Assembly (NCBI RefSeq): GCF_000190575.1
Contig: NC_015164.1
Span: 372,001 to 436,000 of the forward strand
DNA: 64,000 bases
Reading direction: 5' to 3'
DNA from: Phocaeicola salanitronis DSM 18170
GTDB lineage: Bacteria; Bacteroidota; Bacteroidia; Bacteroidales; Bacteroidaceae
Below are positions 3,394 to 20,604 of this stretch, in pieces (position 1 is the stretch's first letter; the number at the start of each line of letters is the position of its first letter). A model generated the notes under the pieces. It was not told where the DNA came from. It worked only from the letters and a program-made list of their open reading frames with translations, and did not search any database. Made by a program: the position numbers and the translations under genes.

Positions 3394-3411
3394 TCCTAAA
3401 ACATTACATCT

Positions 3412-5951: not shown

Positions 5952-6560
5952 TTATATTTCAATCAGGTTCGGGAGGTTAAAGTTTGTATAATCTTCATTC
6001 ATAATAGATCCATTTGAGAAAATGGTTGGACCATCTTCCTTCACTCCGTGTTGTTTATGGATATGGCCAAACAGATGTAAACGGGGTTTTATTTCTTTTA
6101 TCCTCGCCAAAAGTTCTGTCGAACCATAGTTTAACTCATCGTCAAAATCAAGAATACCATAGGGCGGGCAATGGGTAATCAATACGTCAGTATTGGTAGG
6201 TACGGCTGCATAGTTGCGACTCTGACGGTCAGAAATACAATCTTCCATGAACATGGGAACACCATAGAATTTAACTCCATCAATAACCACACCGGAATTA
6301 CATAGATAATGTACATTCTTATCCAGTCCATCTATCTTAGATCCGTATAGGCAGGCATCGTGATTGCCACAAATAAAAATCTTGTGAGGGTAAGGAAGGT
6401 CGCAAAACCAATTCATGAAATCAATGGCTTCTTGCTCGCTTCCATTCATGGTAAAATCTCCTGAATGTATAAGGATGTCAGCATCGGGCAGCTGTGTGAG
6501 CTGCCGATGCTGACTGTGAGTGTCAGAGATGTGGAGAAAATTAATTGAGTTGGTCGGCAT
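5952..6560 (-). CDS. Calcineurin-like metallophosphoesterase
   Basis: 202 residues with the full metal-binding set of the family: D13-T-H15, GDF (34-36), GNHD (65-68), THCPPYG and GHIHKQHG. The THCPPYGILD form is typical of the MPPED/239-like subgroup, which hydrolyses phosphodiesters such as cyclic nucleotides or nucleic-acid ends. It is the last gene of the WYL - exonuclease - DUF262 operon: its first 20 nt overlap the end of the DUF262 gene, so it is probably translationally coupled and serves the same process. Confidence 0.85.
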   Translation of the reverse strand: MPTNSINFLHISDTHSQHRQLTQLPDADILIHSGDFTMNGSEQEAIDFMNWFCDLPYPHKIFICGNHDACLYGSKIDGLDKNVHYLCNSGVVIDGVKFYGVPMFMEDCISDRQSRNYAAVPTNTDVLITHCPPYGILDFDDELNYGSTELLARIKEIKPRLHLFGHIHKQHGVKEDGPTIFSNGSIMNEDYTNFNLPNLIEI

Positions 6561-8904
6561 TTCCTTTTGAATTTCTATAACGGTCTATACATTGGTCCAT
6601 CTTCTCAACCAAATCCTTTTCATCCTTTATCTCGCTACCATTAATGGTCAGGTTGTTGTTTTCTTCATAAAGGCGTTTATTGTCCTCATACAGGTCAATC
6701 CAATTCCAATGTTGCCAACGGAACGCATACTCTGCATCATCAACATAAATGAAATGGATATCCCATCCCCAGAAAAAATCACACCCTTCAATCTTCTGGT
6801 TGGTGTAGATCTTGCCAAGCTGTTTGTTGGACAGGTCAATGCACCCGCCGTAAAGGGTTGACAATAGCTTGTTACGCTTGTCAGCGATTATGTATTTCTT
6901 CCAATCAGCTTTTGCGTTGTAGGGATAGAGAATGTAAATGTCGTTGTCCCTGTAGTTCAAATGACATCCTCTCTCAATATAGTCCAATAAACCGGATATC
7001 ACAAGTTCTTCTTGCACAGCCTTTTGCTTTCCTTCGAATGATGAGTGGTAATCAGGATTAACCTCGAAACTGGAAGAACACAACATTTCATCGATTGGGC
7101 AACTCCACTTGTCATCTAACAAATTAGAACGCCAAGACGATTGCGTACTATCAAAAGTAATCCCCCAAAACATATCCCATTCTGTAAATTTACTAATAAA
7201 ATACCGCAATAAAGTGGATTTGTTCTTGTAAAATCCTTTTTCGCCGAATAGAAACTGAGCATTTCTCCATTTTGTCGCAAAATTATTCCACTCCCATTTA
7301 TTGTTTTTATTTCTAAACAGAAATCGGATTGCACCATTGAAAAAGGCATATCCTTCTGCTTCCGATATAGCCGACTCCCAATTCCATTCTTTATCGTCAC
7401 TCCAATCAGTAGGCCGCTCGGGTAGTTGCGCTTTCTGAGGTTTAAGTATTTGCTTGGCTTTCGCTATTTCCTCTCCTAATTGTTCAGGAGACGCTTTTGA
7501 TTGTATTTTGAAATCTTCGCTTGCCAAATATTCATAGATGTTTTCCACGTGTTTGCTCAATTCATCTATTAATTTCAGACGAGCGGCCATTGCGTCAACC
7601 GTATTTATCGTGGTGTTCTCCGCTAAATTGCACACCACTCTCATCCACCTTCTGAAGCGACGCTCATTGAACGCTGTGCAGGATTCCAAATACCGGCATA
7701 TCCCGAAGAACACGACCCTCTGCGTTTGAGTGAGCGTGGAAATAGTGTTCTCAGTGTATTTGGGAATGAAATCAAACTTCTTGAACCACTTTGGCAGATA
7801 CGCACAGACATCTTCCTTGACTCCTGCTAAACGCTCAAAAAGGGAACTTAGATTCTCCAAAAATTCTGGCTTTGAGAGGATGGAAGAATAGATGCTAAAG
7901 CCATTATCATAGCGAAGCGATGAATCGTCTGATTCCGTTCCATATAGTTTCCATTCTTTTGATGTGTCCTTTGCCTCATTATATATGATAGCGCAATTCA
8001 AGAGATATCTGTTTAGGAAAGCAAAGAAAATCCTGTCAATCTCTCCATTACTGTCGCGGTTCTTCCAAAAGACATCCGTCCATTCAGTGTCGAGTTTTGT
8101 AGGAATGCCTTTTTCGGTATTAAGAAATCTTCCCCAAGCATCATCCTCTTTTGCCTTTTCTTCAATGTATCCGATAAAATCAGCCTTGAAATTCTCGAAT
8201 GAAGTGAGTTGCTTACCACGAGCGTTCATTTTGATGTACAAGTCATCCGTTAGCTTGAAGTCTTTAAGATTAAGATAATAAAACACGATAGGTGCATTTT
8301 CAGAAGTCAAAGCTTTCCAATAATGTTCAAAGCTCTCTTTGTTTGCGTCAAACAATTCTTCCAAGCCATCAATAATATCGTTACCTTGTTTGTTGTTAAT
8401 CTTTGTGCCGCCAATCATTCTCAACATTGATTGTATGGTTGGGTCTTGCTTCCAGGAAGAGTAAAACCAAGTACGGCTGGTTATGAAATCCACAATTCCT
8501 ATGTTGCCGTCATATTCTTCAAAATTTTGGGGTATGCATAGGTTTCTGCAAAACTCCCTTGAAGATATTCGCGTCTCGTATGTGAAATTTCTCAGCCTTA
8601 CAGAGGCTTCTTCGAGCTTGCCAGCCCTGAGTGCCACGTACCAATGAAGCAGCCATAGCGTGGTAAGCCTTTGTTGACCGTCAAGTGGAGATAGTTTGCC
8701 TTCGTCTTCGGAACCATAAACAAAATCAAGTTTCAATGCAGATTCCGGCAATTGATAGTCTAATGCCTGCTTTAGATTCCCAAGGAAATTATTGCGCAAG
8801 TATTCTTTGCCCAATCTGCCCTGTGCATAGTCGCGTTGTATTATCGGAATTTCTATTTGGTAATTGCCGATAAATTTCCAGAATGAAGTTGCTTCGTTTG
8901 TCAT
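6541..8904 (-). CDS. DUF262 (GmrSD-like) protein, 787 aa
   Basis: The N-terminus carries the DUF262 signature: IPIIQRDYAQGR (19-30) and LDGQQRLTT (74-82), the ParB/Srx-like nucleotide-binding motif of GmrS-type proteins. The long C-terminal part (about 400-787) is not recognised. DUF262 proteins are the NTP-sensing or hydrolysing half of GmrSD type IV restriction and related defence systems. The start ATG overlaps the stop of the upstream DUF262/DUF1524 gene by 4 nt, so the two are made together. No DUF1524 HNH motif is obvious here, so it may act as partner to the upstream protein. Confidence 0.8.
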   Translation of the reverse strand: MTNEATSFWKFIGNYQIEIPIIQRDYAQGRLGKEYLRNNFLGNLKQALDYQLPESALKLDFVYGSEDEGKLSPLDGQQRLTTLWLLHWYVALRAGKLEEASVRLRNFTYETRISSREFCRNLCIPQNFEEYDGNIGIVDFITSRTWFYSSWKQDPTIQSMLRMIGGTKINNKQGNDIIDGLEELFDANKESFEHYWKALTSENAPIVFYYLNLKDFKLTDDLYIKMNARGKQLTSFENFKADFIGYIEEKAKEDDAWGRFLNTEKGIPTKLDTEWTDVFWKNRDSNGEIDRIFFAFLNRYLLNCAIIYNEAKDTSKEWKLYGTESDDSSLRYDNGFSIYSSILSKPEFLENLSSLFERLAGVKEDVCAYLPKWFKKFDFIPKYTENTISTLTQTQRVVFFGICRYLESCTAFNERRFRRWMRVVCNLAENTTINTVDAMAARLKLIDELSKHVENIYEYLASEDFKIQSKASPEQLGEEIAKAKQILKPQKAQLPERPTDWSDDKEWNWESAISEAEGYAFFNGAIRFLFRNKNNKWEWNNFATKWRNAQFLFGEKGFYKNKSTLLRYFISKFTEWDMFWGITFDSTQSSWRSNLLDDKWSCPIDEMLCSSSFEVNPDYHSSFEGKQKAVQEELVISGLLDYIERGCHLNYRDNDIYILYPYNAKADWKKYIIADKRNKLLSTLYGGCIDLSNKQLGKIYTNQKIEGCDFFWGWDIHFIYVDDAEYAFRWQHWNWIDLYEDNKRLYEENNNLTINGSEIKDEKDLVEKMDQCIDRYRNSKGNADQLN

Positions 8905-10859
8905 TGTTTGTCCTCCTGATCGTTTTGGTCAAGCTTTTCCAGGCATGAGTCTATATTGTTTTTGTAAGCTTCAGCATCGGCTTTTGTCCAATAGTTATTG
9001 TCACCGATTGTAGTTGAGTAATATTTCAGGAACACCTGTTTCGTGCAAGGCGGAACAAAAGAGGAAGTGGCAAACTTACTCTCTTTGTCTACTGCGAGCC
9101 TCCCGTCTTTCAATAGCTTCGGTATTGGTATCAGTCTGCCCTGATCCTTACCAATAATGACACGACGTTTCGCAGAAAAAATGGCGTTACCATAACTCCT
9201 ATTCGTTGATGAGTCAAGCAGGGTGTAATTCCATATTCTGTTCTTTTCTTCTGGCGTCCAGACCTCAAGATCTTCATTGAAGTTCGCCTTTATTCTCTTG
9301 AAAAGTTCGTCTTTAGTCTCTTTGTCCTCGTTGTCGAAATATTCGTTTATGACTTTCTGCGTATCTTCGTCGGCACTTAGATAGACATTGACAAGCCATT
9401 CTTTACGCGTATCGTCATCTTCTTCCGAGTTGCTCGTGCTGGAATTGATGTGTTCCACATCCCAACCTTCCAACTTATACAGGTGGAACGGGAATTTGTA
9501 AAATGTCCCTATCTTGTATTTATTATTACCTTGTTGTGCCTGGTTTTGATTTATCACAGTCTGTATGTTGTGGAACAGCAATAGACGACAGCATTTGCGC
9601 TTGTCGCTTCCATCATCTTTGTATTGGTAGTCTGTGCCATTATTGCCTATCGTTCTCTTGATTTCGTCTTTCAGATAACACACAAACTCTTTCTTGTCCT
9701 TCTTCGCCTTCCATGAGTTTACAAGTTGTTCAATGGAAATGGAGCCTACCGCAAGGAGGAAACCTACGTAATGGTAAAGTACCAAGTCATCATACCATTC
9801 ATTAAACGTTTGGAAATAGGATTTTACTATCTGCCAAGCTCTTTCTGTTTTCTGTAATTGGGTTTCTTCGTCATTATTCCCATCTTGGTGTGAGGACTTA
9901 AAGTATTCATAAAAGTATCGGAATGTCCTGTATTCGTCAGAACCAATAATCTTTCCCTTTTCATCCTCTTTATTGAGTTTTTCAATATTAAGCGCATTTC
10001 TGCTGCAAATCAAATCGAAGATGAAGTCTATACGCGTCGGACGATCATAACCCTTGTCGTGCAGGAATAGCCAAAACTCGTCGCTTTGCAGGGTATATTC
10101 TATCTTATCCCATTCGCTTGCGATTTCTTGTTGCCTCAATCTTAAACTGTCGGTCGACTTTCCTGCAAAATTAGATCTGTTAAGGAACAATGCCTTTATC
10201 AGCTCTGAATTGGTAAGGGCTATTTTGCCGATGTTCAGTCGGGTGAACACCTTTATGGGGTCTTCGTCAACAGATTCATACCATATAAAATTAACTTTGT
10301 TTTTCAGCTTGTCCAAGAATGCCCCTTTGTCAAAGTCAGGCTTGAGCCATTCGTTCACGGTTTTCCTGGCTTGAGCCATATAATAAAAGTCAATGTTGTC
10401 CCTTTCATCATATTTATCCATATTGAGAAGGAATTCCCTGCTTTTAGCGCGAGTTGCGTATTCCAATGAATAAGACTCATCGGAGTCAAGGCATCTGAGA
10501 ATAATGTATATAGTGGTAAGTCGCTGTTGCCCGTCTATAACTTCCCACTTGCCAACGCTCTTATTGAGAATTTCCCTTATCGCTGAAAGTTTATTCCTTT
10601 CATGTATTTTTGCCACAATATCATTTTCGTTGCGCAGTCTCACTACCAATGGTTGCAAGCAATAGAATCCATCCTTGCTGGCATCGAACTCGTTGATGTC
10701 GTTGAGCAAGTCCTTCACTTGTTGGCGTGTCCACCTGTAGCCGCGCTGATAATTCGGGATGAAAAAGCTCAAGCCTGAAAGCTCTCCTATTGTTTTCAAC
10801 CCAATTTGATTGTCGTTACATTGTTGTCCCATAATATTCGTAATTTTATAATTTTCCAC
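8901..10859 (-). CDS. DUF262 + DUF1524 (GmrSD-like) nuclease
   Basis: 652 residues. The N-terminal DUF262 part shows FIPNYQRGYRWTRQQ (33-47) and VIDGQQRLTT (107-116). The C-terminal DUF1524 part shows WDVEHINSS and then NYTLLDSSTNRSYGNAIF with KRR, the His-Me-finger-like nuclease of GmrD. It is thus a single-chain GmrSD-type enzyme, known to cut modified phage DNA in an NTP-dependent way. It overlaps the exonuclease gene upstream by 14 nt (ATG 10859; ATG 10832 is an alternative) and the second DUF262 gene downstream by 4 nt. Confidence 0.85.
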   Translation of the reverse strand: MENYKITNIMGQQCNDNQIGLKTIGELSGLSFFIPNYQRGYRWTRQQVKDLLNDINEFDASKDGFYCLQPLVVRLRNENDIVAKIHERNKLSAIREILNKSVGKWEVIDGQQRLTTIYIILRCLDSDESYSLEYATRAKSREFLLNMDKYDERDNIDFYYMAQARKTVNEWLKPDFDKGAFLDKLKNKVNFIWYESVDEDPIKVFTRLNIGKIALTNSELIKALFLNRSNFAGKSTDSLRLRQQEIASEWDKIEYTLQSDEFWLFLHDKGYDRPTRIDFIFDLICSRNALNIEKLNKEDEKGKIIGSDEYRTFRYFYEYFKSSHQDGNNDEETQLQKTERAWQIVKSYFQTFNEWYDDLVLYHYVGFLLAVGSISIEQLVNSWKAKKDKKEFVCYLKDEIKRTIGNNGTDYQYKDDGSDKRKCCRLLLFHNIQTVINQNQAQQGNNKYKIGTFYKFPFHLYKLEGWDVEHINSSTSNSEEDDDTRKEWLVNVYLSADEDTQKVINEYFDNEDKETKDELFKRIKANFNEDLEVWTPEEKNRIWNYTLLDSSTNRSYGNAIFSAKRRVIIGKDQGRLIPIPKLLKDGRLAVDKESKFATSSFVPPCTKQVFLKYYSTTIGDNNYWTKADAEAYKNNIDSCLEKLDQNDQEDKQ

Positions 10860-11397
10860 TATAGTATTTCATTTCCTCTAATCCACAAAGTCCGAAGTCC
10901 TTTATTTCTCTCAGAAACAGCCGTGCACACATCTCCGCGTCATCTCCTGCCCGGTGATGCCGTCCGTAGGGAATCTTAAACTGGTCGCAAAGGTAATCCA
11001 GACTATTGCAACCGAAGTCATAGAGCTTGCGGGCGGCACGCAGGGAGCAATAATAAGTAATGTCAGGCTTCTCCATGCCGTATAGTTCCAATGAATGACG
11101 GATGCAACCGACGTCGAAAGCGGCATTGTGAGCCACAAGTATAGGAATATCTTTAAGGTATTCACTGATTTCCGCCCATACTTCCGGAAACTCTGGAGAG
11201 TCAACTGTATCATTCGGGCGGATGCCGTGTATCTGCATGTTCCAATAACTGTACCTGTTTCCTTGCGGACGGACAAGCCACGAACGGGTCTTGGTCACCT
11301 CACCGTTACGCACCACACAGATACCGGCTTCGCAAATGGAAGCACGTTTGCCTGTGGCCGTTTCAAAATCTATGGCTATGAAATTTATTCCTTGCAT
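10846..11397 (-). CDS. DEDDh 3'-5' exonuclease (DnaQ/RNase T-like)
   Basis: 183 residues with all exonuclease motifs: ExoI D10-F-E-T (AIDFETATG), ExoII AHNAAFD near residue 95, and ExoIII H-x-AGDDAE near residue 155, whose His makes it the DEDDh type. The length is that of a free-standing single-domain exonuclease, not a polymerase subunit. It would trim single-stranded DNA or RNA 3' ends. It overlaps the WYL gene upstream by 13 nt and the DUF262/DUF1524 gene downstream by 14 nt, placing it in one operon with both. Confidence 0.9.
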   Translation of the reverse strand: MQGINFIAIDFETATGKRASICEAGICVVRNGEVTKTRSWLVRPQGNRYSYWNMQIHGIRPNDTVDSPEFPEVWAEISEYLKDIPILVAHNAAFDVGCIRHSLELYGMEKPDITYYCSLRAARKLYDFGCNSLDYLCDQFKIPYGRHHRAGDDAEMCARLFLREIKDFGLCGLEEMKYYSGKL

Positions 11398-12350
11398 GGC
11401 TTGCCCTCCTTCTTTTCTGTATAAAAGTCCAATATGTTTTGGGCGAAGTTGCGCATCTCGTCACGTACCGATTCCGGCTCCAATACTTCCACTTGGTCGC
11501 CTTGGGCAAGCACCAACTGATAGAAGTCGAAAGTTGGTTTTAGGTGGTATTCAAAGAGAGTCGATTCGTCATCACTTCCAATCTCACGCTGTGATTCATG
11601 CAAAGGCAATGTGCGCAAATAGTCCGCAAAACCATTGTATGCCCGAAGAACAATCTTTTGAGACGATTCGTTAGAAGTGATTATGCCACAACATCCTTCA
11701 AAATAGCTGTGTACATCGAAGTTCTTTTTCATCTTGAACGTCCGTCCCGTATCTTGAATGTCTGAAATACGGTCGAGGGCGTACACCAAATACACATCAC
11801 TTGGCTTGACGCCTTGTTCTTTATTCCGCTCGGAGTAATAAGGACTGCGCGCCACCACATACCAACGGCGTTTCACCACTTTCAAGAAGTAAGGCTCAAT
11901 GTCGAATGTGCTGGGTTCCGGTTTGCCGAAGCCTTGGTGCGTAATGCTCAACACATGGTTACGACGCATGGCATCCGCAATGCAGGTCAGCCAGGTCTGT
12001 CCCGAAGGGATTTCCTCAAAGATAATCCGGTCTTCCAGCTTGTTATCCGCTTGTATCTGGTTCAATGTGGCGTATGAACTGATAAGCCAGCTGCGCAGAT
12101 TATTGCCCTCTATGCGTTCCGGCTCGTCAATATAATAACGGTATCCGTCCTTCCGGTCACATTCTATATATACATCAAAAATGTCTTTGATGGCTTTCTT
12201 ATGGTTATGAAAGGTCTTCAAAGGCAGTTCCTCGCCATAGCCTAATCCACTTTCCTGCCAAAGTTCATTGATTTCCTGAAACGTCAGCCGTTTGTATCTG
12301 CGCAAGATGTCCATCAGCCATACGTATCGTCCAAAAAGATTTGCTGCCAT
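11385..12350 (-). CDS. WYL-domain transcriptional regulator
   Basis: 321 residues: an N-terminal winged HTH (about 1-75, YVWLMDILRRYKRLTFQEIN), a WYL-type domain in the middle (IEPYFLKVVKRRWYVVARS near 150; YALDRISDI near 190) and a C-terminal WCX-like extension. WYL proteins bind single-stranded nucleic acid or nucleotide ligands and often control defence or RNA/DNA repair genes. It is the first gene of the five-gene operon running down to 5952. Its own promoter bears the TGCC-N7 repeat shared by four other promoters nearby, so it is the best candidate for the factor that binds it. Confidence 0.85.
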   Translation of the reverse strand: MAANLFGRYVWLMDILRRYKRLTFQEINELWQESGLGYGEELPLKTFHNHKKAIKDIFDVYIECDRKDGYRYYIDEPERIEGNNLRSWLISSYATLNQIQADNKLEDRIIFEEIPSGQTWLTCIADAMRRNHVLSITHQGFGKPEPSTFDIEPYFLKVVKRRWYVVARSPYYSERNKEQGVKPSDVYLVYALDRISDIQDTGRTFKMKKNFDVHSYFEGCCGIITSNESSQKIVLRAYNGFADYLRTLPLHESQREIGSDDESTLFEYHLKPTFDFYQLVLAQGDQVEVLEPESVRDEMRNFAQNILDFYTEKKEGKPCKE

Positions 12351-12376
12351 ATTGCTGTCATTTAATGGTTATGCCA

Positions 12377-12411
12377 CAAAGTTACGCATTTCCTTGTGCC
12401 AAATCGTAGCT
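12377..12411 (-). promoter_or_regulatory. WYL operon promoter with TGCC-N7 repeat (degenerate half)
   Basis: On the minus strand, -7 box TAACTTTG (12377-12384) preceded at 12 nt by AGCT-ACGATTT-GGCA (12397-12411). The GGCA half is exact and the TGCC half has two mismatches. The 11 bases ACGATTTGGCA are identical to those at the 19594 site. Confidence 0.6.
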
Positions 12412-12454
12412 CAATATTAAATTTTCTCTTTTTCCTGCATTTCTTTTTATGATA

Positions 12455-12488
12455 TGCCGCGTTTTGGCATTTAACGCTCTTTACTTTG
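12455..12488 (+). promoter_or_regulatory. Promoter of the W-repeat gene with TGCC-N7-GGCA repeat
   Basis: TGCC-GCGTTTT-GGCA at 12455-12469, 11 nt before the -7-like TTACTTTG (12481-12488). The start codon is at 12528. Confidence 0.65.
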
Positions 12489-12527
12489 CAGCAGAATGAA
12501 TGATAAACTTCTAAACATTAACGTATT

Positions 12528-13046
12528 ATGGTAACAAAGAATTTAAGCAACGATTTTATGGCGAAAGTATTGGAAGATGCCGCTTGGAAGGAACTTTCGG
12601 GCGACTTTGCTTGGAACGAGCAACTGCTGGAGAAATACAAGGACAAGGTGGAATGGAAAACGGTTTCCGGCAACCGTACCATCCTTTGGACGGTCTCCAT
12701 GCTTGAGAAATTTAAGAACAGAATTGACTGGGAAGAACTTTCCGGGTCGAACAATGAGCACCTATTTACGGCAGAAAACTTGGAGAAATACAAGAACTAT
12801 TGGAACTGGCGGGAATTATCCCGTAACTCCGATCTGATTCTGACTTCGGAACTTTTGGAGCAGTTTGCCGACTGCTGGGACTGGAATGAAATTATTGATT
12901 GTTACGGCAGGGAAGGTTTGTTCAGTGCGGAGTTCTTGGAAAAGTATCAAGACCGCATTCCCGCTTCCTCTTTGCAACGCTCCCGCTTGTGGGACAAGCT
13001 GGTTGAGTATGAAGCAAAACGGTTGAAAGTACAGATTCTCTCTTGA
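12528..13046 (+). CDS. W-repeat protein of unknown function
   Basis: 172 residues made of about five imperfect repeats of 24-28 residues. Each has the form W-x-x-L/V-S-x-N, then T/S-x-x-(M/L)LEKYK and a closing W (for example WKELSGDFAW, WKTVSGNRTI, WEELSGSNNE, WRELSRNSDL). Such short Trp/Leu repeats suggest a solenoid or scaffold. No catalytic motif is visible. It is transcribed divergently from the WYL operon and its promoter has the shared inverted repeat, so it is likely part of the same regulon. Confidence 0.7.
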   Translation: MVTKNLSNDFMAKVLEDAAWKELSGDFAWNEQLLEKYKDKVEWKTVSGNRTILWTVSMLEKFKNRIDWEELSGSNNEHLFTAENLEKYKNYWNWRELSRNSDLILTSELLEQFADCWDWNEIIDCYGREGLFSAEFLEKYQDRIPASSLQRSRLWDKLVEYEAKRLKVQILS

Positions 13047-13112
13047 TGTCGGTTAATTGACTCCGCAAAAAGGTTGCCCAAAGACTGGATAGTAAGGGTA
13101 ACCTTTTTAATT

Positions 13113-14279
13113 TTACCAACATAAATCACCATTAATGCCCGTAAAAGCATGAGCCACATGTGAAGCCTCATCGTCTTTTCCTTGATGGCTTAACGCATTC
13201 CACACCCCTGTTACGACTCTGCATGGACCACGACCATTTGGCGAATATTGCCAATTACCTTCTCTAAAACATGGAACTTGATTTAATATCGAGGAGGTAA
13301 GTAACCTGGCAGTCATGGTTGCCCCATATTTACGAAGCTCTAATGCGATTCCTGTTATGATTTCCTGAGCCAGTTCGTTATATTCTTCAGAGGATTGTGG
13401 ATGCTTATTCATGGCTATCTGATTAGCCAAATCACAAAAGCGTGAATAGTCTGTCGTCTCGTCATAATGAGGAAAATGTCTGAAACGTTTAAATAACTTA
13501 TGGCTTGCGAGAGCATCACAAACTGCTTGTGCAAAATCTTTTTTGTCTATAATACCTCTTGTCATATAACTTGAATGCCAACAATGCAGAATAACAACGC
13601 CTTTATGAATATATTCATGCAAGAATCCATCTTTACCCCATTTGTTAATTGGCTTCAAACCGTCAACGGGTCTATAACTGTCATAGGACTTTTCATTTCG
13701 GTATAAATATAAAATAACCTGTGGTTTAAACACGTCTATGAAATTGTCTATATTCGTAATTCCAGCATCAAAAGCTATTTCTTGGATACTATTCATTTCA
13801 TCTGGAGTTATTTTACTTTGATCGACACCTCCTGAATCGTAAGTTTCAATAGCATGGCAATTATTCCATGCGATACTATTGATGATGGGGGAATCTTTTT
13901 CAAGCACACTATTTACGTCAACATCATACATCAAAGCTAATACTTCAGCGAAATATTGCCAAAATGTATTGCGCCATTCAGAAGGCCCTTCCGTGCGGAA
14001 ATAGGTTTCTGAGTAAGAATTTATACTTTTCCCTTTTTCGAAATCTTTTAGATTTTCATACAAAGAATCTCCCCACCCATAGGTTTCTTTCCCCATTATT
14101 GCAATCTTAACCAATGAATCGGCATAATATTTACCACAGGATGGAACAAACAGTTCCGGTATTGCTTTTAAGCATTCGTCAGAGACATGAAGTTCATTTA
14201 ATTTCTCAAAAAACATACGGCACAAAGGCTCGTATATAAGATTGCGCTGTTTCTGAATATGTTTATCTAAATCTTTCAT
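13113..14279 (-). CDS. Possible uracil-DNA-glycosylase-fold protein
   Basis: The start is set at ATG 14279 (MKDLDKHIQKQR): the promoter at 14314-14345 would start transcription at about 14305, leaving a 20-30 nt leader; ATG 14303 would be almost leaderless. 388 residues. IAIMGKETYGWG near residue 55 and VVILHCWHSSYM near residue 235 resemble the two active-site loops of the uracil-DNA glycosylase superfamily, but the match is weak and by eye. It is AT-richer than its neighbours and has its own ordinary promoter without the TGCC repeat, so it may be a later insertion in the cluster. Confidence 0.6.
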   Translation of the reverse strand: MKDLDKHIQKQRNLIYEPLCRMFFEKLNELHVSDECLKAIPELFVPSCGKYYADSLVKIAIMGKETYGWGDSLYENLKDFEKGKSINSYSETYFRTEGPSEWRNTFWQYFAEVLALMYDVDVNSVLEKDSPIINSIAWNNCHAIETYDSGGVDQSKITPDEMNSIQEIAFDAGITNIDNFIDVFKPQVILYLYRNEKSYDSYRPVDGLKPINKWGKDGFLHEYIHKGVVILHCWHSSYMTRGIIDKKDFAQAVCDALASHKLFKRFRHFPHYDETTDYSRFCDLANQIAMNKHPQSSEEYNELAQEIITGIALELRKYGATMTARLLTSSILNQVPCFREGNWQYSPNGRGPCRVVTGVWNALSHQGKDDEASHVAHAFTGINGDLCW

Positions 14280-14313
14280 TTCTATTGGTATTAGAGAATT
14301 CATACAATAAATG

Positions 14314-14345
14314 CAAATATAGGCAATTCCTTTTGTATGAACAAA
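14314..14345 (-). promoter_or_regulatory. Canonical Bacteroidetes promoter (-33 TTTG / -7 TATATTTG)
   Basis: On the minus strand: -33 TTTG (14342-14345), 20-nt spacer, -7 TATATTTG (14314-14321). It drives the gene starting at 14279 and settles its start codon. Confidence 0.75.
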
Positions 14346-14432
14346 TAATGACATGAGAAAAAACGGGTATTTCTTCAATGTTACCGGCATCCCTTACAAA
14401 ACCGATTTGGAAGAGCAGTCTCTATTATTGTA

Positions 14433-15407
14433 TTACAGTCTGTTCAACAACAGCCTAACTTTAACATCCTGTCTGCTACTTTCATAAGTTGATGTACCAA
14501 ACAGGATATCGTCATAACCCAAATGTAAGCGTATCGCTTCATTGAACCGATTGAGTTCAGGCTTTGTCAATGGATAACAAGTAGGAACTATTATGAAGAC
14601 AATGGCATTATTATACTTTTCCAAAGTTAAGTATTGGTATTTGGTTATTGACTCTAAAATATAGTCCAAACGTCCATAAGTTCCGCTTGTGATGGACAAG
14701 TAATCGTATTGTCTTCCATACTCAATGTGAAGCAGGAAATCCACATCACTTCTCTTGAAACTACTTCCTTCGGCGGAAAGCTGTGTTATCAGGTTCTCGC
14801 GTGCAGCCATCCGTTTCAAATATTCCTCCCGTTTGTCCTGACGGTATTCCCGTTTCCGCTTGGAGCGGTTCTTCCGCTCGTTGAACAAGTAACGAGTGCT
14901 TTGCCGGGTAGTGTACCGTTCTCCGTTTTCTCCTCGGCAACGAAGCCGCCGTGGAGTTTGATGCTTCCAAATGCTTTCTTCCAGCTTGTCCAAAGCAATT
15001 TCATATTGGTTGGCTGGCTTATGGTGATTAAACCTCCGATTAAAGGTTTCTAATTGTTCTTGTGGGGAAAAACCCCAATAAGTGATTTCCCACAAACAGT
15101 GCATAGCAAGTTCTTCATTGGTGAGGTGTATGTCATCGGCAACCACAACATCCGCAGCCAAATCTTCCTCCCAACTGACTTCATGCATGGGATGCACTCT
15201 TATCCATTTTTCTTCTCCCTCCATTTCTCCACCGCTCCAGCTTACATGGATTTCATGTGGTCCATTTTTGGCAGGAGTCATGCGGCGCAAAATATCGTAT
15301 GCCTCGCGGAAAGCATAAATGTTATCCAGATGTTCCGGCTCAAACTTCTCCAAGTGGGGACGAAGGCTGTCAAAATCTACTTTCATTACCAGTTCTTTCA
15401 GTGTCAT
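14433..15407 (-). CDS. DUF6557-like protein, full-length paralogue
   Basis: The start is ATG 15407 (MTLKELVMKVDFDSL), matching the start of the paralogue at 18572. 324 residues. The N-terminal half is a conserved domain (LKEL..KVDFDSL, IYAFREAYDILR, ELAMHCLWEITYWGFSP). The middle is strongly basic (NRSKRKREYRQDKREEYL). The C-terminal half includes GSSFKRSDVDFLLHIEYG and LGYDDILFGT. The basic linker suggests nucleic-acid contact. I recall the family as DUF6557, unverified. It is divergent from rtcB and shares the TGCC-N7 promoter motif. Confidence 0.75.
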   Translation of the reverse strand: MTLKELVMKVDFDSLRPHLEKFEPEHLDNIYAFREAYDILRRMTPAKNGPHEIHVSWSGGEMEGEEKWIRVHPMHEVSWEEDLAADVVVADDIHLTNEELAMHCLWEITYWGFSPQEQLETFNRRFNHHKPANQYEIALDKLEESIWKHQTPRRLRCRGENGERYTTRQSTRYLFNERKNRSKRKREYRQDKREEYLKRMAARENLITQLSAEGSSFKRSDVDFLLHIEYGRQYDYLSITSGTYGRLDYILESITKYQYLTLEKYNNAIVFIIVPTCYPLTKPELNRFNEAIRLHLGYDDILFGTSTYESSRQDVKVRLLLNRL

Positions 15408-15424
15408 AAGCAAATAGTTTTGCG

Positions 15425-15458
15425 CAAAGGAAGTGTTTTTCTGTGCCAAAATAAAGCA
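15425..15458 (-). promoter_or_regulatory. Promoter of the DUF6557-like gene with TGCC-N7 repeat
   Basis: On the minus strand: TGCT-TTATTTT-GGCA (15444-15458, one mismatch to TGCC), 11 nt, then -7-like TTCCTTTG (15425-15432). Confidence 0.6.
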
Positions 15459-15481
15459 CAGGGTTGATATTTTTTTGCTTA

Positions 15482-15516
15482 TGCCTCAATTCGGCACACA
15501 CCTTCTCTTATTTTTG
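15482..15516 (+). promoter_or_regulatory. rtcB promoter with TGCC-N7-GGCA repeat
   Basis: TGCC-TCAATTC-GGCA at 15482-15496, 12 nt, then a perfect -7 box TATTTTTG (15509-15516). The rtcB start codon is at 15546. Confidence 0.65.
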
Positions 15517-15545
15517 CACTTGTAAACTCTAAATAGGTGAAAACA

Positions 15546-16811
15546 ATGAGAAACATTCAGAATCACGACGTGAAGATATTCACGGACAACATCGAAACAA
15601 CTGCCATTGAACAGATAGAACGGTTGCTGACCATCCCCGCATTCGGCGGTTGCAAAATCCGCATCATGCCTGATGTTCATGCAGGGGCAGGCTGTGTCAT
15701 CGGCTTTACAGGTGACTTGGGAGACAAGGTTATCCCCAATATCGTAGGTGTGGACATCGGTTGCGGCATTCTTGTGCAGCCGTTCACCTGCATGAAAGAG
15801 ATAGATTACCACGCCTTGAATGAGTTCATCCTACATCACATCCCGTCAGGACGCAATTATCGGGACAACAAGTATGCAACACTGTCACAAAAGTATATGG
15901 ATGCTTACCGCGAGAGCAAGGACCTCATCAAACAGATGTGTTGCTACCGGGAATTGAAAGAGACGAAACGCCTCAATCTCTCCATCGGTTCGCAGGGCGG
16001 AGGCAACCATTTCATTGAATTGGATAAGGATGAAAGCGGTCTATTTTATTTGGTTGTGCATACCGGAAGCCGTAATCTGGGCAAACAAGTTGCCGATAAT
16101 TACCAGAAGTTAGCCGTGAAATGCCAGTCCGGTTGGGCGGAACTGATGGAGGAACAGAACCGTCTGATTGCGGAATACAAGCAGGCCGGACGGAAAGATG
16201 AGTTGCAGGACGTTATCCGCGAACTGCACAATTCATTCAAGATGCGTAAACCTACGATACCGCCCGATTTGTCCTACTTGGAGGGCACCTATCGGGAAGA
16301 CTACCTGTACGACATGCGCCTCTGCCAGCAATGGGCAAAGATAAACCGGCGCATGATTACGGGGCTTATCATGGATTACCTTATCCGTCAGGGATATGCC
16401 GACATGCGTGAAGACAACCTTCAGTTTGAAAGCATCCATAACTATATTAGCGATGATAACATCATCCGTAAGGGTGCCATCTCTGCCAATGCCGGAGAAA
16501 AATGTATCATCCCGTTGAATATGCGTGACGGTTCTCTCATCTGCATCGGTAAAGGCAACGAAGATTGGAACTGCTCTGCTCCCCACGGTGCAGGCCGCAT
16601 CATGAGCCGAAGTCAAGCTTTCCAGAACATCAGTTTGGATGATTATGCCCGCTCTATGCAAGGCATCTATACAGAATGCGTGAACGAAGAGACCAAGGAC
16701 GAGTCGCCGATGGTGTATAAGCCAAAGGACGAGATTATCCGCAATATCAACGATACTGTATCAGTGGTGAATGTCATTAAACCGGTGTATAACTTTAAGG
16801 CGGCGGAGTAA
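15546..16811 (+). CDS. rtcB: RtcB RNA-splicing ligase
   Basis: 421 residues from ATG 15546 (MRNIQNHDVKIF); the GTG 9 nt upstream is less likely. RtcB joins 2',3'-cyclic-phosphate or 3'-phosphate RNA ends to 5'-OH ends using GTP and manganese. Visible family motifs are MPDVHAGAGCVIGFTGDLGD, VGVDIGCGI, GSQGGGNHFIEL, VVHTGSRNLGKQVA and SAPHGAGRIMSR; the His of the last is the guanylylated residue. All metal-binding His/Cys positions appear intact. It is followed at 14 nt by a Doc/Fic gene in the same operon. The TGCC-N7-GGCA promoter links it to the WYL regulator. Confidence 0.95.
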   Translation: MRNIQNHDVKIFTDNIETTAIEQIERLLTIPAFGGCKIRIMPDVHAGAGCVIGFTGDLGDKVIPNIVGVDIGCGILVQPFTCMKEIDYHALNEFILHHIPSGRNYRDNKYATLSQKYMDAYRESKDLIKQMCCYRELKETKRLNLSIGSQGGGNHFIELDKDESGLFYLVVHTGSRNLGKQVADNYQKLAVKCQSGWAELMEEQNRLIAEYKQAGRKDELQDVIRELHNSFKMRKPTIPPDLSYLEGTYREDYLYDMRLCQQWAKINRRMITGLIMDYLIRQGYADMREDNLQFESIHNYISDDNIIRKGAISANAGEKCIIPLNMRDGSLICIGKGNEDWNCSAPHGAGRIMSRSQAFQNISLDDYARSMQGIYTECVNEETKDESPMVYKPKDEIIRNINDTVSVVNVIKPVYNFKAAE

Positions 16812-16825
16812 GCCACCCATTGGAA

Positions 16826-17356
16826 ATGAATAGGACAAGAAGTATGACGGATTTTCAACAAATTTTCAATGTATTTGAAGACTATAGCTTGGCACTTTCC
16901 ATGCTCGATGATTACGATCATCAACGGATGTCCCGACCGCAGGGATGTAAAGGCACATACGTTCTTACCTACGAAGAGTGCCGAAGCCTGATTGACACAA
17001 TGCGTTTCAGCTGCGAGTCGGACTTGTTCGGTCATGAAAAGGATGATTCATTCAGAGGCAGCATTGGAAACATTTACCAGAGTTTCGCAGGAAAGGATGT
17101 CTATCCATCGGTGGAAGAGAAAGCTGCCAATCTGCTTTATTTCATCACCAAGAACCACAGTTTTAACGATGGCAACAAGCGTATAACGGCAGCTTTGTTT
17201 CTATACTTCCTCAACCTCAACGGCATCCTGTATGACGGAAAAGGTCAGAAACGTATAGCCGACCATACGCTGGTTGCACTTACAATTATGGTTGCTGAGT
17301 CACGCATGGAGGAGAAAGAGATTATGGTCAGTATCGTCATGCACTGTATCGGATAA
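16826..17356 (+). CDS. Doc/Fic-domain protein (C-terminal half of RhuM-Fic type)
   Basis: 176 residues from ATG 16826. The Fic/Doc motif is NHSFNDGNKRITAALF, the Doc-like HxFxxGNKR form that supports phosphorylation or other nucleotidyl-type transfer to proteins such as EF-Tu. Residues 25-60 (LDDYDHQRM, LTYEECRSLI) match the linker and start of the Fic domain in longer RhuM-Fic proteins of Bacteroidetes, but the RhuM domain is missing. No antitoxin is obvious next to it. It follows rtcB by 14 nt, so it is probably co-expressed with the ligase. Confidence 0.8.
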   Translation: MNRTRSMTDFQQIFNVFEDYSLALSMLDDYDHQRMSRPQGCKGTYVLTYEECRSLIDTMRFSCESDLFGHEKDDSFRGSIGNIYQSFAGKDVYPSVEEKAANLLYFITKNHSFNDGNKRITAALFLYFLNLNGILYDGKGQKRIADHTLVALTIMVAESRMEEKEIMVSIVMHCIG

Positions 17357-17433
17357 TTTTTTCCTTTTTCTATAAATCCCATATAAGAAAATATGAATGT
17401 TCGTAATTTACCCAACCCGACCACATTGAAAAT

Positions 17434-17515
17434 GAAGATATACTTCGTTTGCCGATGAAGTATATCTTCGTTGGCTGTTGTAGTATATATTAAACTGGCG
17501 ATGAAGTATATCTTC
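17434..17515. repeat. Inverted and direct repeats of GAAGTATATCTTC
   Basis: GAAGATATACTTC (17434-17446) is the exact reverse complement of GAAGTATATCTTC at 17457-17469 and at 17503-17515. The latter two lie in identical contexts (GATGAAGTATATCTTCGTT). The rest of the 17357-17600 gap shows no gene. It could be a regulatory site or hairpin between the convergent rtcB-fic and dprA operons. Confidence 0.7.
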
Positions 17516-17600
17516 GTTCTCAGAGGGTATACGAAATTCAAGGAAATACAACAAAGAAGAAGGTGCTAAAAATTGATCTGCACTTTCTTCTTTGCTATCT

Positions 17601-18572
17601 TCAAACAGCTTTATTCAATAGCAACATAACTTTTATTTGTTCACATTCATTATTCTCTACGACAGTACCGAACAGGATATTTTCATATCCCAACCGGTTA
17701 TGCACCGCTTGACGGAATGTCTCCAGTTCTGTATTATCCGGCGGATAACAGGAAGAATAGCGGATAAATACAATCGCATGGTCATATCGGCTTAAATCAA
17801 GCTGTTGGTATTTTGTCATGGACTCAAGGATATAGTCCAACCGTCCGTTTGTTCCAAGAACAACGGAACAATAATCATACCGGATGCCATACGCAATATC
17901 GAACAAAAATTCCACATCGCTACGCTTAAAGCTGCTGCCCGGAATGGTAAGCATCTGTATGAGCGTTTCCCGTTTTGCCATGACCTCAAGATATTCTTCG
18001 CGCTTGTCTTGACGGTATTTCCGTTTTTTCTTGCTGCGGTTCATCGGCTTGTTACAAAACTTGAATGGGAAATGTGCAATGGTCAGCCGTGCACCGTCTT
18101 CATCCCTTGCACGGAACTTGCGAGGAGTCTGATGCTTCCACATGCTTTCTTCCAACTTGTCCAATGCCACTTCGTAACGATTCAGCGGCTTCCGCCTGCC
18201 GAACATCTTGGAGAATGTGTCTTCACGATCTACGGGTGAGAAACCATAGAAAGTGATTTCCCACAGGCAGCGCATGGCAAGTTCTTCCATATTGAGCTGC
18301 ATGCCGTTGGGAAAAACAAATTCTTTAGCCAATTCTTTCTCCCATACATTATCGTCCAAGAAGTTTACCTGTGTGATTTTTGTTCCGTCTTCTCTTGTTG
18401 TCGTTATTATGGTAACTTCCCCTCTATAATCCTTGTCCGGTTCCATGTTCCTAAGAATATCGTATGCTTCACGGAAGGCATAGATGTTATCCAAATTCTT
18501 CTTTTCCCATTTCTCCAGATACGGGAGAAGGCTGTCGAAGTCAACCTTCATGATAAGTTCTTTCAGTGTCAT
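17601..18572 (-). CDS. DUF6557-like protein, full-length paralogue
   Basis: 323 residues, collinear with the paralogue at 14433-15407: MTLKELIMKVDFDSLLPYLE, IYAFREAYDILRNM, ELAMRCLWEITFYGFSP, the basic NRSKKKRKYRQDKREEYL stretch, and GSSFKRSDVEFLFDIAYG. Spread of differences along the whole length indicates an old duplication. Its start overlaps the end of the dprA-like gene by 32 nt, so it is the second gene of that operon. Function is unknown; location suggests nucleic-acid processing. Confidence 0.75.
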   Translation of the reverse strand: MTLKELIMKVDFDSLLPYLEKWEKKNLDNIYAFREAYDILRNMEPDKDYRGEVTIITTTREDGTKITQVNFLDDNVWEKELAKEFVFPNGMQLNMEELAMRCLWEITFYGFSPVDREDTFSKMFGRRKPLNRYEVALDKLEESMWKHQTPRKFRARDEDGARLTIAHFPFKFCNKPMNRSKKKRKYRQDKREEYLEVMAKRETLIQMLTIPGSSFKRSDVEFLFDIAYGIRYDYCSVVLGTNGRLDYILESMTKYQQLDLSRYDHAIVFIRYSSCYPPDNTELETFRQAVHNRLGYENILFGTVVENNECEQIKVMLLLNKAV

Positions 18573-19521
18573 TTTTGATGTCGTTTATTGTTAGTTGATA
18601 AGATTGATTCAGCGTAATGTTTTGTTCCGGTCGGAGAGGAATGGCAAGATTATAGTCTAGTAAGAATTTGTTGCCGGAGTTTAGTTCATCCCATGTGTCA
18701 TACTCCACCGCATAAATGTCGTTCTCCCAACCAAAGAAATCACCGTCATATTCCTGTGCGAAGCGCACGGCATACATGGTTCCGCTGATAATGGGGCATT
18801 GCGCCACAATGACCGATTGGGTCAAAGCCACTTGCATACGGCATCGGGCAACCAGCCTCGTAGGGTTTGCCTTCATGCCGAACGGATGTTCGGACACGAT
18901 AGTTCCACCTTTTGCCACGATTTCCTCCTGTAAGGTTTTGTTTACTTTTGGATGTGTGATGTCCAATCCGGAAGCGACAATGGCGATAGTCTGCCCCTCC
19001 GCATCAAGACAACCCCGATGCGCCGCCGTGTCGCATCCCAATGCAAGACCGCTGATTACCACATGGTCTTGCCCGCCTATCTGCTTGCCAAACCGATAAG
19101 CTGCGTCCAAACCTTCAGCATCGGCTGCACGGGCACCGATAATGGTCACTGTATCGTTCCGGTTGAGCAATTCCAAATTGCCTGATACATGAATGAGAGG
19201 TGGGGTGTCATTGCATAGATTCCTGAAATGGTAAGGATAATCGACTGCATAATACGGAATAGTGATAACTCCTGCTTTAGCCTGCCTGTCCAATATCCGT
19301 TTCGCTTTGTCAAGCTCACGAGTGGCTTTTGCTGCCGTCCTTTTTAGCTGTTCGTTAACTTCGGGATTAACTCTTTCTATTATTTGCCGGGAAGAATATC
19401 CCAGCAGTTGCAAGCAAAGCAATTCTTCCACTGAAAGACATGAGGCTTTCCATTCGGTTTCTTCTTCTTTCCTTTTCTCAATTCTTCCTTTCAGAATGTC
19501 TGGCAAATCAAAATCTTCCAT
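18541..19521 (-). CDS. DprA/Smf-like DNA-processing protein
   Basis: The start is set at ATG 19521 (MEDFDLPDILKG); the frame extends further upstream but across the shared promoter region. 326 residues. The Rossmann-like DprA core is visible: YPYHFRNLCNDTPPLIHVSG, VTIIGARAADAEG, VISGLALGCDTAAHRGCL, TIAIVASGLDITHP, GGTIVSEHPFG. DprA loads RecA on single-stranded DNA; DprA-like Rossmann proteins also occur as sensors in defence loci. The N-terminal helical part and a C-terminal tail of about 60 residues differ from the housekeeping enzyme. It is divergent from the 19643 operon over one palindromic site. Confidence 0.8.
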   Translation of the reverse strand: MEDFDLPDILKGRIEKRKEEETEWKASCLSVEELLCLQLLGYSSRQIIERVNPEVNEQLKRTAAKATRELDKAKRILDRQAKAGVITIPYYAVDYPYHFRNLCNDTPPLIHVSGNLELLNRNDTVTIIGARAADAEGLDAAYRFGKQIGGQDHVVISGLALGCDTAAHRGCLDAEGQTIAIVASGLDITHPKVNKTLQEEIVAKGGTIVSEHPFGMKANPTRLVARCRMQVALTQSVIVAQCPIISGTMYAVRFAQEYDGDFFGWENDIYAVEYDTWDELNSGNKFLLDYNLAIPLRPEQNITLNQSYQLTINDIKNDTERTYHEG

Positions 19522-19593
19522 AATAAGTTTTTGCTTGCAAAAGAAATCATTAAATGTGCTGAATTGAAGCATAGGCAAATTATTTTTCTGTTC

Positions 19594-19627
19594 TGCCACG
19601 ATTTGGCATTTAGCGCGAATACCTTTG
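19594..19627 (+). promoter_or_regulatory. Shared divergent promoter site with TGCC-N7-GGCA
   Basis: TGCC-ACGATTT-GGCA (19594-19608), 11 nt, then a perfect -7 box TACCTTTG (19620-19627) for the gene at 19643. On the other strand a weaker -7-like ATAATTTG (19576-19583) lies 10 nt away and may serve the dprA-like operon. Confidence 0.65.
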
Positions 19628-19642
19628 CAAAAAACAGAAGGT

Positions 19643-20008
19643 ATGAACAAGACACCGGCATGGAAAGAAAAAGCGTGGAAAGCCAAATGCCACGAGGGAT
19701 ATGCGGAAGTATCGTATGAAGACGTATGGTCTTTGGACACACGTTTGGCAAGGATTATCGCCAACCATCTTCGGGCTTTCTTGAAGGCAGAAAAAGGGCC
19801 ATACGGCGGTACACCGGGCAACATCATTGAAAAGCATGGAGAAGACAAAGGCTATGCGGAATGGCTGAACATCATCCGCAAGATGATTTATGCTTTCGAG
19901 GAGTACCAGCGTACAGACCAATGGAGCGAGGAAGATGCGGAGAAGCGGAAACGCATCCGTGAAGGCATGAAACTCTTCATCGACCATTACGGAGATTTGT
20001 GGATATAA
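19643..20008 (+). CDS. Small protein of the phage/RtcB-associated type
   Basis: 121 residues from ATG 19643 (MNKTPAWKEKAW). WSLDTRLARIIANHLRAFLK followed by EWLNIIRKMIYAFEEYQ resembles a family I recall from phages and RtcB neighbourhoods, in which the second motif reads EWDEILDKMIWAFE. No catalytic residues are recognised. It is the first gene of an operon of at least three or four genes, led by the TGCC-N7-GGCA promoter. Confidence 0.65.
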   Translation: MNKTPAWKEKAWKAKCHEGYAEVSYEDVWSLDTRLARIIANHLRAFLKAEKGPYGGTPGNIIEKHGEDKGYAEWLNIIRKMIYAFEEYQRTDQWSEEDAEKRKRIREGMKLFIDHYGDLWI

Positions 20009-20028
20009 TAATTTTAATTTTTTGCAAT

Positions 20029-20481
20029 ATGACATTCAAAGATTTATTGGAACAATTCAGTTTTGACGAGATAGCCCCGGCGTTCAAAACTTTGTGGCAA
20101 CGGAATGCGCCGGAACAGGCCGCACGACTTGACATGGAGGGCTGGCGAAAAATCTATCATTCGATACAGGAGATAAAACCGGTGCATTCCCCTTACTATA
20201 TCCGTTTGGGGTATCGTTGGGAGGGTTGCATACCAATGGTGGACATGAACTGTTCTGTCTATGCAAAAGAAGACAATGCACTATGCTATCCCCTCTCGAA
20301 TCACTCACATTGGGCAGAAAGTGTCGGTATGGAAATCGTAATAGGGGAAGACGTAAAAATCGCTCCGAAAGAGTTGGTTGCCGGATTGCTTTGGGAAATC
20401 ACATACTATGGCGGTACGGAGGCGATGTCGAATGAAAATCAGGAACGTTTTTTTAATCGGAGTAGGAATGCCAATAAATAA
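20029..20481 (+). CDS. DUF6557-like protein, N-terminal-half only
   Basis: 150 residues from ATG 20029. MTFKDLLEQFSFDEIAPAFK, the WRKIYHSIQEI helix and the ELVAGLLWEITYYGG strand parallel the N-terminal half of the two 320-residue paralogues at 14433 and 17601. The basic linker and C-terminal half are absent. There is no sign of frameshift decay, so this is probably a natural short form. It is 20 nt after the previous gene, in the same operon. Confidence 0.65.
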   Translation: MTFKDLLEQFSFDEIAPAFKTLWQRNAPEQAARLDMEGWRKIYHSIQEIKPVHSPYYIRLGYRWEGCIPMVDMNCSVYAKEDNALCYPLSNHSHWAESVGMEIVIGEDVKIAPKELVAGLLWEITYYGGTEAMSNENQERFFNRSRNANK

Positions 20482-20593
20482 ACGAAGGGTATTTACCGCC
20501 ATATTAATCGGATTGGCTATGGCCGTTGTGCTTTATTACATCGTCCACTCGTGTGGCGGCATGTCAGAAGAACGGTGGATAAGAATCTTTTAA
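20468..20593 (+). CDS. Small single-pass membrane protein
   Basis: 41 residues from ATG 20468 (MPINKRRVFTAILIGLAMAV), overlapping the end of the preceding gene by 14 nt. A basic N-terminus is followed by one hydrophobic helix and a short tail. ATG 20432 would add 12 residues. No function is assigned. Confidence 0.4.
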   Translation: MPINKRRVFTAILIGLAMAVVLYYIVHSCGGMSEERWIRIF

Positions 20594-20604
20594 TTATCAT
20601 TAAA

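Follow-up and report, generated by a model that had tools for sequence, protein, structure and literature searches.

Several transcriptional regulators built on a WYL domain have been described, and those parts of the published accounts that deal with their operators form the background for the present analysis of a 64,000-nucleotide stretch of Phocaeicola salanitronis DSM 18170 (NC_015164.1, positions 372,001 to 436,000), called the window hereafter, in which the inverted repeat TGCC-N7-GGCA, exact or degenerate, stands at a fixed distance from the -7 box of six promoters and one gene encodes a WYL protein. DriD is described as a homodimer with a winged helix-turn-helix (wHTH), a WYL and a WCX domain, which binds an N7 pseudo-palindrome lying over a poor -35 element at one distance from -10 and which occupies several promoters including its own (PMC12340889). 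PafBC and SiwR are reported as mycobacterial WYL activators working at the -26 region. The sites of CapW, which controls its own gene, overlap -10, and R-BOX1 of BrxR lies downstream of its promoter. In addition, RtcR activates rtcBA on tRNA halves with a cyclic phosphate, as described in PMC7790460, and the promoter consensus given for Bacteroides in PMC7366714 has TAnnTTTG at -7 and TTTG near -33.

For the window we propose, as the reading that has the better part of the evidence with it, that a dimer of the WYL protein binds the palindrome and activates these promoters in the manner of DriD, without a -33 element. The genes for an RNA ligase, for nucleases and for other candidates in phage defence would then probably be switched together, because the palindrome stands at a fixed distance in six promoters and the arrangement recurs beside related regulators. 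WYL regulators with palindromic operators adjoining defence genes are already known; what appears to be new is an activator-type grammar within this phylum, with many promoters for each regulator and a link to rtcB. No description of an operator of this kind, or of a WYL-rtcB regulon in Bacteroidales, was found in the literature searched, which was covered mostly by titles and included few subscription journals. A readable operator for a widespread Bacteroidales WYL family would permit gene-by-gene prediction of co-switched defence and RNA-repair candidates, and it suggests a single inducible response that takes in the RNA ligase, the nucleases and the other defence candidates.

The palindrome and its distance from the -7 box

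The predicted operators and their -7 boxes are listed below by position in the window, with the spacer between them given as N11 or N12 (11 or 12 nt).

12397..12411, minus strand: predicted operator of the WYL operon, AGCT...GGCA with left half AGCT, two mismatches, N12
12377..12384, minus strand: -7 box TAACTTTG of the WYL operon, exact
12455..12469, plus strand: predicted operator TGCCGCGTTTTGGCA of the W-repeat gene, exact repeat, N11
12481..12488, plus strand: -7 box TTACTTTG of the W-repeat gene, one mismatch
15444..15458, minus strand: predicted operator TGCTTTATTTTGGCA of the DUF6557 gene, one mismatch, N11; the same site is found in locus L033
15425..15432, minus strand: -7 box TTCCTTTG of the DUF6557 gene, one mismatch
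15482..15496, plus strand: predicted operator TGCCTCAATTCGGCA of rtcB-fic, exact repeat, N12
15509..15516, plus strand: -7 box TATTTTTG of rtcB-fic, exact
19557..19571, minus strand: predicted operator TGCTTCAATTCAGCA before dprA, the sixth and a weaker site, TGCT-N7-AGCA, N11
19538..19545, minus strand: -7 box TTCTTTTG of dprA
19594..19608, plus strand: predicted operator TGCCACGATTTGGCA of the 19643 operon, exact repeat, N11
19620..19627, plus strand: -7 box TACCTTTG of the 19643 operon, exact

All six operators end 11-12 nt upstream of the box, and the operator consensus is T-V-TGCC-N-Y-R-W-TTT-GGCA-Y-A. An earlier note, made from the letters of the window, had placed five TGCC-N7-GGCA sites at 11-12 nt from a TAnnTTTG-like box and had given the 13113-14279 gene an ordinary promoter; the five sites lie exactly where it put them, at those distances, and the promoter of that gene is indeed an ordinary TTTG-N20-TATATTTG, as read from the sequence. 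Its view that a site merely faces the dprA-like operon has to be corrected, as this operon has a site of its own at 19571-19557, which is kept in six of the nine other distinct DprA loci compared (L033, L034, L038, L039 (= L072), L044 and L082, the last identical to the window) and was not found in L043, L081 and L102. The operator of the WYL operon is degenerate in the window, and its counterparts in L036, L042, L045 and L071, at the same position, deviate from the palindrome by 0-1 mismatches.

The repeat alone is not rare, since 44 copies with at most one mismatch occur in the window and 21.3 are expected from shuffles. The 4.31-Mb genome has two copies of the exact composite of repeat and box (spacer 9-13), both inside the window, and three copies with at most one mismatch at N11, two of them inside the window (reversed-pattern control, one). 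Furthermore, the 10.3-kb region of the sites holds seven matches at six places at the loosest threshold, against a mean of 0.83 and a maximum of 4 in 100 mononucleotide shuffles.

The distance recurs at other loci. In a phase test with loci fetched through the WYL protein only, the window left out and repeats and boxes allowed one mismatch each, 748 repeats gave 201 box matches within 0-30 nt, 50 at N11, 22 at N12 and 129 over the other 29 spacings, so that N11/N12 are in excess (72/201, binomial p 2e-34, for loci that are related and not independent); eight permuted half-site palindromes (18-60 each) gave no N11/N12 peak. With WYL as the sole criterion, 80 loci (protein identity 32-43%) yielded 72 non-redundant WYL upstream regions; the composite stands at N11/12 and points towards the WYL gene in 26 of these, and the five other spacing pairs used as a control gave 0 to 3 each and 6/360 in all. 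In a letter-free scan, too, a dyad axis turns up repeatedly about 19 nt ahead of exact -7 boxes. Exact 4-mer dyad counting in the same 72 regions fails to single out TGCC-N7-GGCA because the half-sites vary too much; runs of T/A come first, and TGCA-N7 is found in 8/72 regions with shuffle maxima of 4 to 9 in 20 sets. No further sites were found at nine loci with a TGCA site at the WYL promoter, and L149, which has two WYL genes, shows two TGCA-type sites before other genes. At L131 and L138 variant dyads TTGTATC-N7-GGTACAA stand divergent from WYL, in the same phase, before TATTTTTG boxes, and the WYL proteins there have another recognition helix (RTTFNRH). A chance repeat was rejected as an explanation on the genome-wide composite count, the phase test and the WYL upstream counts.

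The motif promoters also differ from ordinary promoters further upstream. TTG is present 21-26 nt upstream of the box in 43 of 102 ordinary promoters, that is, other promoters of the same loci whose -7 box is exact (its start peaks at 23), against 1 of 38 motif promoters (p 1e-6), a contrast which is partly built in, the operator letters filling most of that zone, and which to this extent counts against the activation reading together with the points gathered below. It shows that these promoters do without a -33 element, with the predicted operator standing in its place. The possibility that TTTGGCA is itself a plain -33 box was rejected, as its TTTG starts 18-19 nt upstream and the ordinary TTG peaks at 23.

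Relatives and the WYL protein as predicted binder

The survey of relatives covered 301 family genomes, a sample of a larger group, of which 171 have WYL homologues; homologues are also present at 22 contig loci, including Phocaeicola faecium (97% identity), Bacteroides finegoldii and Xylanibacter rarus. The strict form TGCC-N5-TTGGCA with spacer 10-11 occurs in 15/301 genomes, 14 of these with a WYL homologue (reversed control, 2 matches), and the N11 composite with at most one mismatch gives 132 matches in 88/301 genomes against 25 control matches (16 forward, 9 reverse). At least 49 of the 132 lie within 10 kb of a WYL gene against 0.47 expected, a lower bound because the count used 150 WYL places among the matches listed. 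Moreover, genomes with one-mismatch matches number 71/171 among the WYL-positive and 17/130 among the WYL-negative (p 5e-8).

The model of the WYL protein (mean pLDDT, predicted local distance difference test, 82.5) has the wHTH-WYL-WCX architecture, with predicted helices at 2-19, 24-34 and 44-58 and wing strands at 62-74. Its structural matches are DriD (the best), BrxR, CapW and PafBC; PafBC is its best PDB profile match, and the profiles favour PafBC and DriD over BrxR and CapW. The first bases flanking the repeat pair in 44 of 86 sites against a shuffled mean of 28 and a maximum of 45 in 2000, the related sites not being independent, and such symmetric variation is what a homodimer would produce. 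In addition, the inner left letter is A in 1/18 distinct combinations with N49 in the recognition helix (44-58) and in 7/10 with other residues (p 7e-4), a match between helix and half-site which is suggestive support for the WYL protein as binder. The shared operator and the WYL protein as its natural binder, both put forward in the earlier note, find good support in these comparisons (phase, autoregulatory position, WYL proximity, flank symmetry), with the helix match as a suggestive addition, and the WYL protein is the likely predicted binder.

Matches in WYL-negative genomes look mostly like background. Genomes without a listed WYL have 23 matches; at 20 of these loci no WYL open reading frame (ORF) was found, at 12 of the 20 no ORF of any kind was found within 250 nt downstream, and one further match, in G104, is that of L097 (see below). 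As a separate observation, loci L206-L210 (G054 and G090, one genus) show sites of the forms TGTCRCARATTGGCA and TGTCATASTTTGGCA ahead of -7 boxes; a WYL ORF was not found at these loci, and the sites possibly belong to another regulator.

Genes behind the predicted operators

The stretch 5952-21495 comprises the WYL operon, the W-repeat gene, the DUF6557 gene, rtcB-fic, the dprA-like gene together with another DUF6557-like gene, and the operon that begins at 19643. The gene order in the WYL operon is WYL, DEDDh exonuclease, GmrSD/DUF262, GmrSD/DUF262 and calcineurin-like phosphoesterase.

11385..12350, minus strand: WYL regulator (wHTH, WYL, WCX), gene 1 of the WYL operon; Pfam WYL 4.6e-11, WCX 1.4e-11
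10846..11397, minus strand: DEDDh exonuclease, WYL operon; Pfam RNase_T 3.9e-26, PADLOC PDC-S48 2e-27
8901..10859, minus strand: GmrSD/DUF262-type gene, WYL operon; Pfam GmrSD_N 6.3e-30
6541..8904, minus strand: second GmrSD/DUF262-type gene, WYL operon; Pfam GmrSD_N 7.9e-18
5952..6560, minus strand: calcineurin-like phosphoesterase, end of the WYL operon; Pfam Metallophos 1.5e-13, PADLOC PDC-S10 3.2e-78
12528..13046, plus strand: W-repeat gene (172 amino acids), candidate target; no Pfam match
14433..15437, minus strand: DUF6557 gene, candidate target; Pfam 7.5e-09
15537..16811, plus strand: rtcB RNA ligase, candidate target; Pfam RtcB 9.5e-59
16820..17356, plus strand: fic, in the rtcB operon; Pfam Fic 1.4e-09, PADLOC PDC-S23 8e-68 (part of the profile)
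17601..18572, minus strand: second DUF6557-like gene, overlapping the end of dprA; Pfam 2.9e-05 (under the curated cut-off)
18541..19521, minus strand: dprA-like gene, candidate target; Pfam DNA_processg_A 1.3e-45, PADLOC ShosA 4.8e-54
19643..20008, plus strand: first gene of the 19643 operon, candidate target; no Pfam match

The PADLOC matches of the phosphoesterase, Fic, DprA-like protein and exonuclease, which are family matches, make these proteins candidates for phage defence. Conservation was counted gene by gene for the composite with at most two mismatches, with the window and the loci chosen by motif (L077, L082, L086-L097) included. The composite stands upstream of WYL in 25/40 cases, of the W-repeat gene in 11/11, of rtcB in 8/16, where its site is recognisable, of the first DUF6557 family in 3/8 and of dprA in 3/9, two of these three being a different upstream match and not the conserved dprA site. 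Shuffles give at most 0.1 for each. The composite is rare before the exonuclease (2/28), GmrSD (1/15), phosphoesterase (0/9), fic (0/4) and 20569 (0/8) genes, before the two other DUF6557 families (b, 1/4; c, 1/9), and before the 13113 gene (0/2) and the 19643-gene homologue (0/1). Regulon membership varies, as the 8/16 for rtcB show. Other ORFs of at least 120 amino acids have the composite in 26/469 cases against 0.33 expected from shuffles; genes led by the motif at other loci include AAA+ ATPases, a MoxR ATPase, a ClpP protease, SpoU methylases and DUF6847, and the unlabelled ones, of which 20 of 31 were scanned, have mixed functions, 14 with a Pfam match at 0.01 (some under the curated cut-off) and 6 without.

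The WYL genes' own sites are often degenerate, with two mismatches in 17/24 WYL promoters, and the W-repeat sites have the exact repeat in 9/11. The spacer of the own WYL sites is N12 in 18/24, and more distant WYL genes have mostly N11. A second, minimal copy is present in the same genome (L071 8542-9650; G000:C1 about 1,403,500-1,404,650), in which WYL (94%) is divergent from rtcB (88%) and one operator-like site stands before each gene.

The surroundings contain two adjacent tyrosine integrases (2164-4662) and an IS66 transposase (32526-34319), and the dprA-DUF6557-20569 stretch is 100% identical in a genome of another genus (G298, L082); these features make the island look mobile and suggest that it moves. 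More candidate defence genes lie at 23363-43612, namely Fic-HTH (helix-turn-helix), AbiEi/AbiEii, a third GmrSD_N protein and a cluster of helicase, PLD-like, DUF6361 and AAA genes.

Proposed activation, its rivals and the described regulators

In the mechanism proposed here, the palindrome would serve the WYL protein encoded at 11385-12350 as its operator, and a homodimer would contact both half-sites, one wHTH to each. The centre of the site lies about 19 nt upstream of the -7 box, in the place taken by the -33 TTG in ordinary Bacteroidales promoters. A ligand, probably a nucleic-acid fragment, would fill the WYL domain, and the ligand-bound dimer would recruit the housekeeping polymerase to promoters without a -33 element, in much the same way as DriD and PafBC. 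The dimer would thereby switch on its own operon, with the exonuclease, the two GmrSD proteins and the phosphoesterase, and co-activate the W-repeat gene, the DUF6557 gene, rtcB-fic and the dprA-like and 19643 operons. A response to one nucleic-acid signal, which the earlier note had raised, would follow by analogy with DriD, PafBC and CapW, and is weakened by the loss of an arginine: in the stretch corresponding to R-x-x-R, the arginine pair with which PafBC binds single-stranded DNA, the first R is A, S, G, P or C in 120/120 aligned members, the second being kept in 118, and the DriD and PafBC rows of the alignments have R at that position.

This loss is one of several points that weigh against the proposal. 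As many as 83 of the 132 N11 matches have no listed WYL gene within 10 kb, which is in part background (the 25 control matches), and 45 of the 72 WYL upstream regions show no recognisable site in either direction at up to two mismatches. Corrected for the tree, the link between helix and half-site comes down to four site changes and five residue changes, and a sign test is not significant. In the structure comparison BrxR is only 2-3 Z units under the DriD C-domain and level with DriD in polymerase complexes, and BrxR is described as having a second site, R-BOX2, upstream of PbrxA, so that repressor sites are not all at -10. Furthermore, some perfect palindromes lie on fragments that, as far as compared here, carry no WYL gene. 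L093 and L097 have the perfect composite before an exonuclease-Fic pair (41-42% and 56% to that of the window), and genome G104, from which L097 comes, has no WYL at E 1e-10; L213 (G098:C118) has distant 19643, DUF6557 and GmrSD homologues (25-39%) and a perfect palindrome, and no WYL ORF was found on its 7.7-kb contig.

The main rival, to which we give a smaller though real share of the probability, is that the WYL protein binds the same operators and represses, as BrxR and CapW do, blocking the polymerase near -33 until a ligand produced during phage attack releases it. A steric blocker needs no fixed phase, yet the recognised sites keep their phase to within 1 nt; the motif promoters have no -33 box; the CapW sites and the main BrxR site have the positions given above, at or beyond -10; and the sequence profiles point to PafBC and DriD, so that activation by the WYL protein is judged likelier than repression. 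Much less probable is that another DNA-binding protein, encoded elsewhere, binds the operator and has the WYL gene as one of its targets. The palindromes of L093, L097 and L213 and the 17 WYL-negative genomes with matches speak for such a protein, but the matches cluster at WYL genes far above chance, those in WYL-negative genomes are mostly background-like, and the half-site letters track the WYL recognition helix, albeit without significance on the tree. Ordinary promoter sequence with chance palindromes, which the abundance of the bare repeat might recommend, is refuted by the phase, conservation and linkage counts and keeps hardly any probability.

A wider reading is offered tentatively, as one that may well prove too broad: the Bacteroidales WYL family would share one promoter grammar, an N7 dyad with its axis about 19 nt before the -7 box replacing -33, with half-sites (TGCC, TGCA, TGTC and others) diverging along with the recognition helix, and would govern a mobile, SOS-independent response to nucleic-acid damage or phage, in which damaged or foreign nucleic acid switches on rtcB RNA repair, type IV restriction-like proteins, exonuclease, Fic and a DprA-like protein.

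Among the described systems, RtcR resembles the system proposed here in that an rtcB operon is under the control of a nucleic-acid signal. However, RtcR is a sigma-54 enhancer-binding protein with a CARF domain, whereas this locus has a WYL protein and -7 boxes of the housekeeping type; a CARF or sigma-54 activator domain was present in none of 19 window proteins scanned, and Pfam gives the regulator near rtcB no domains other than WYL and WCX. BrxR and CapW are likewise WYL regulators that adjoin defence genes and bind palindromes, but an operator at or downstream of -10 is not seen here, the profile similarity is lower and BrxR has two sites in its island. PafBC and SiwR share with the proposed mechanism the action at the -26 region, and PafBC is the best profile match; unlike the predicted homodimer, PafBC is a heterodimer with sigma adaptation, and both of its arginines for single-stranded DNA are essential. 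The likeness to DriD is the closest in arrangement, as the WYL protein of the window has the same domains and the N7 dyad lies over -33 at a fixed distance from the -7 box; the distance of the DriD site from -10 in published oligonucleotides, which reads as 10-12 nt with weak -10 elements, carries no weight in this comparison. The two differ in that the identity is about 19% in the structural alignment, the half-site is CGAC in DriD and TGCC here, the box here is a Bacteroidales -7 box, and the targets are didA, bapE, recJ and dnaG there and rtcB, GmrSD, Fic and the dprA-like gene here. Nearly all members here have A or S in place of the first arginine of the RLDR stretch, and because this arginine is missing the WYL protein of the window is not filed as a DriD orthologue. 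The arrangement suggests that DriD's activator grammar has an equivalent in a phylum whose promoter code is different.

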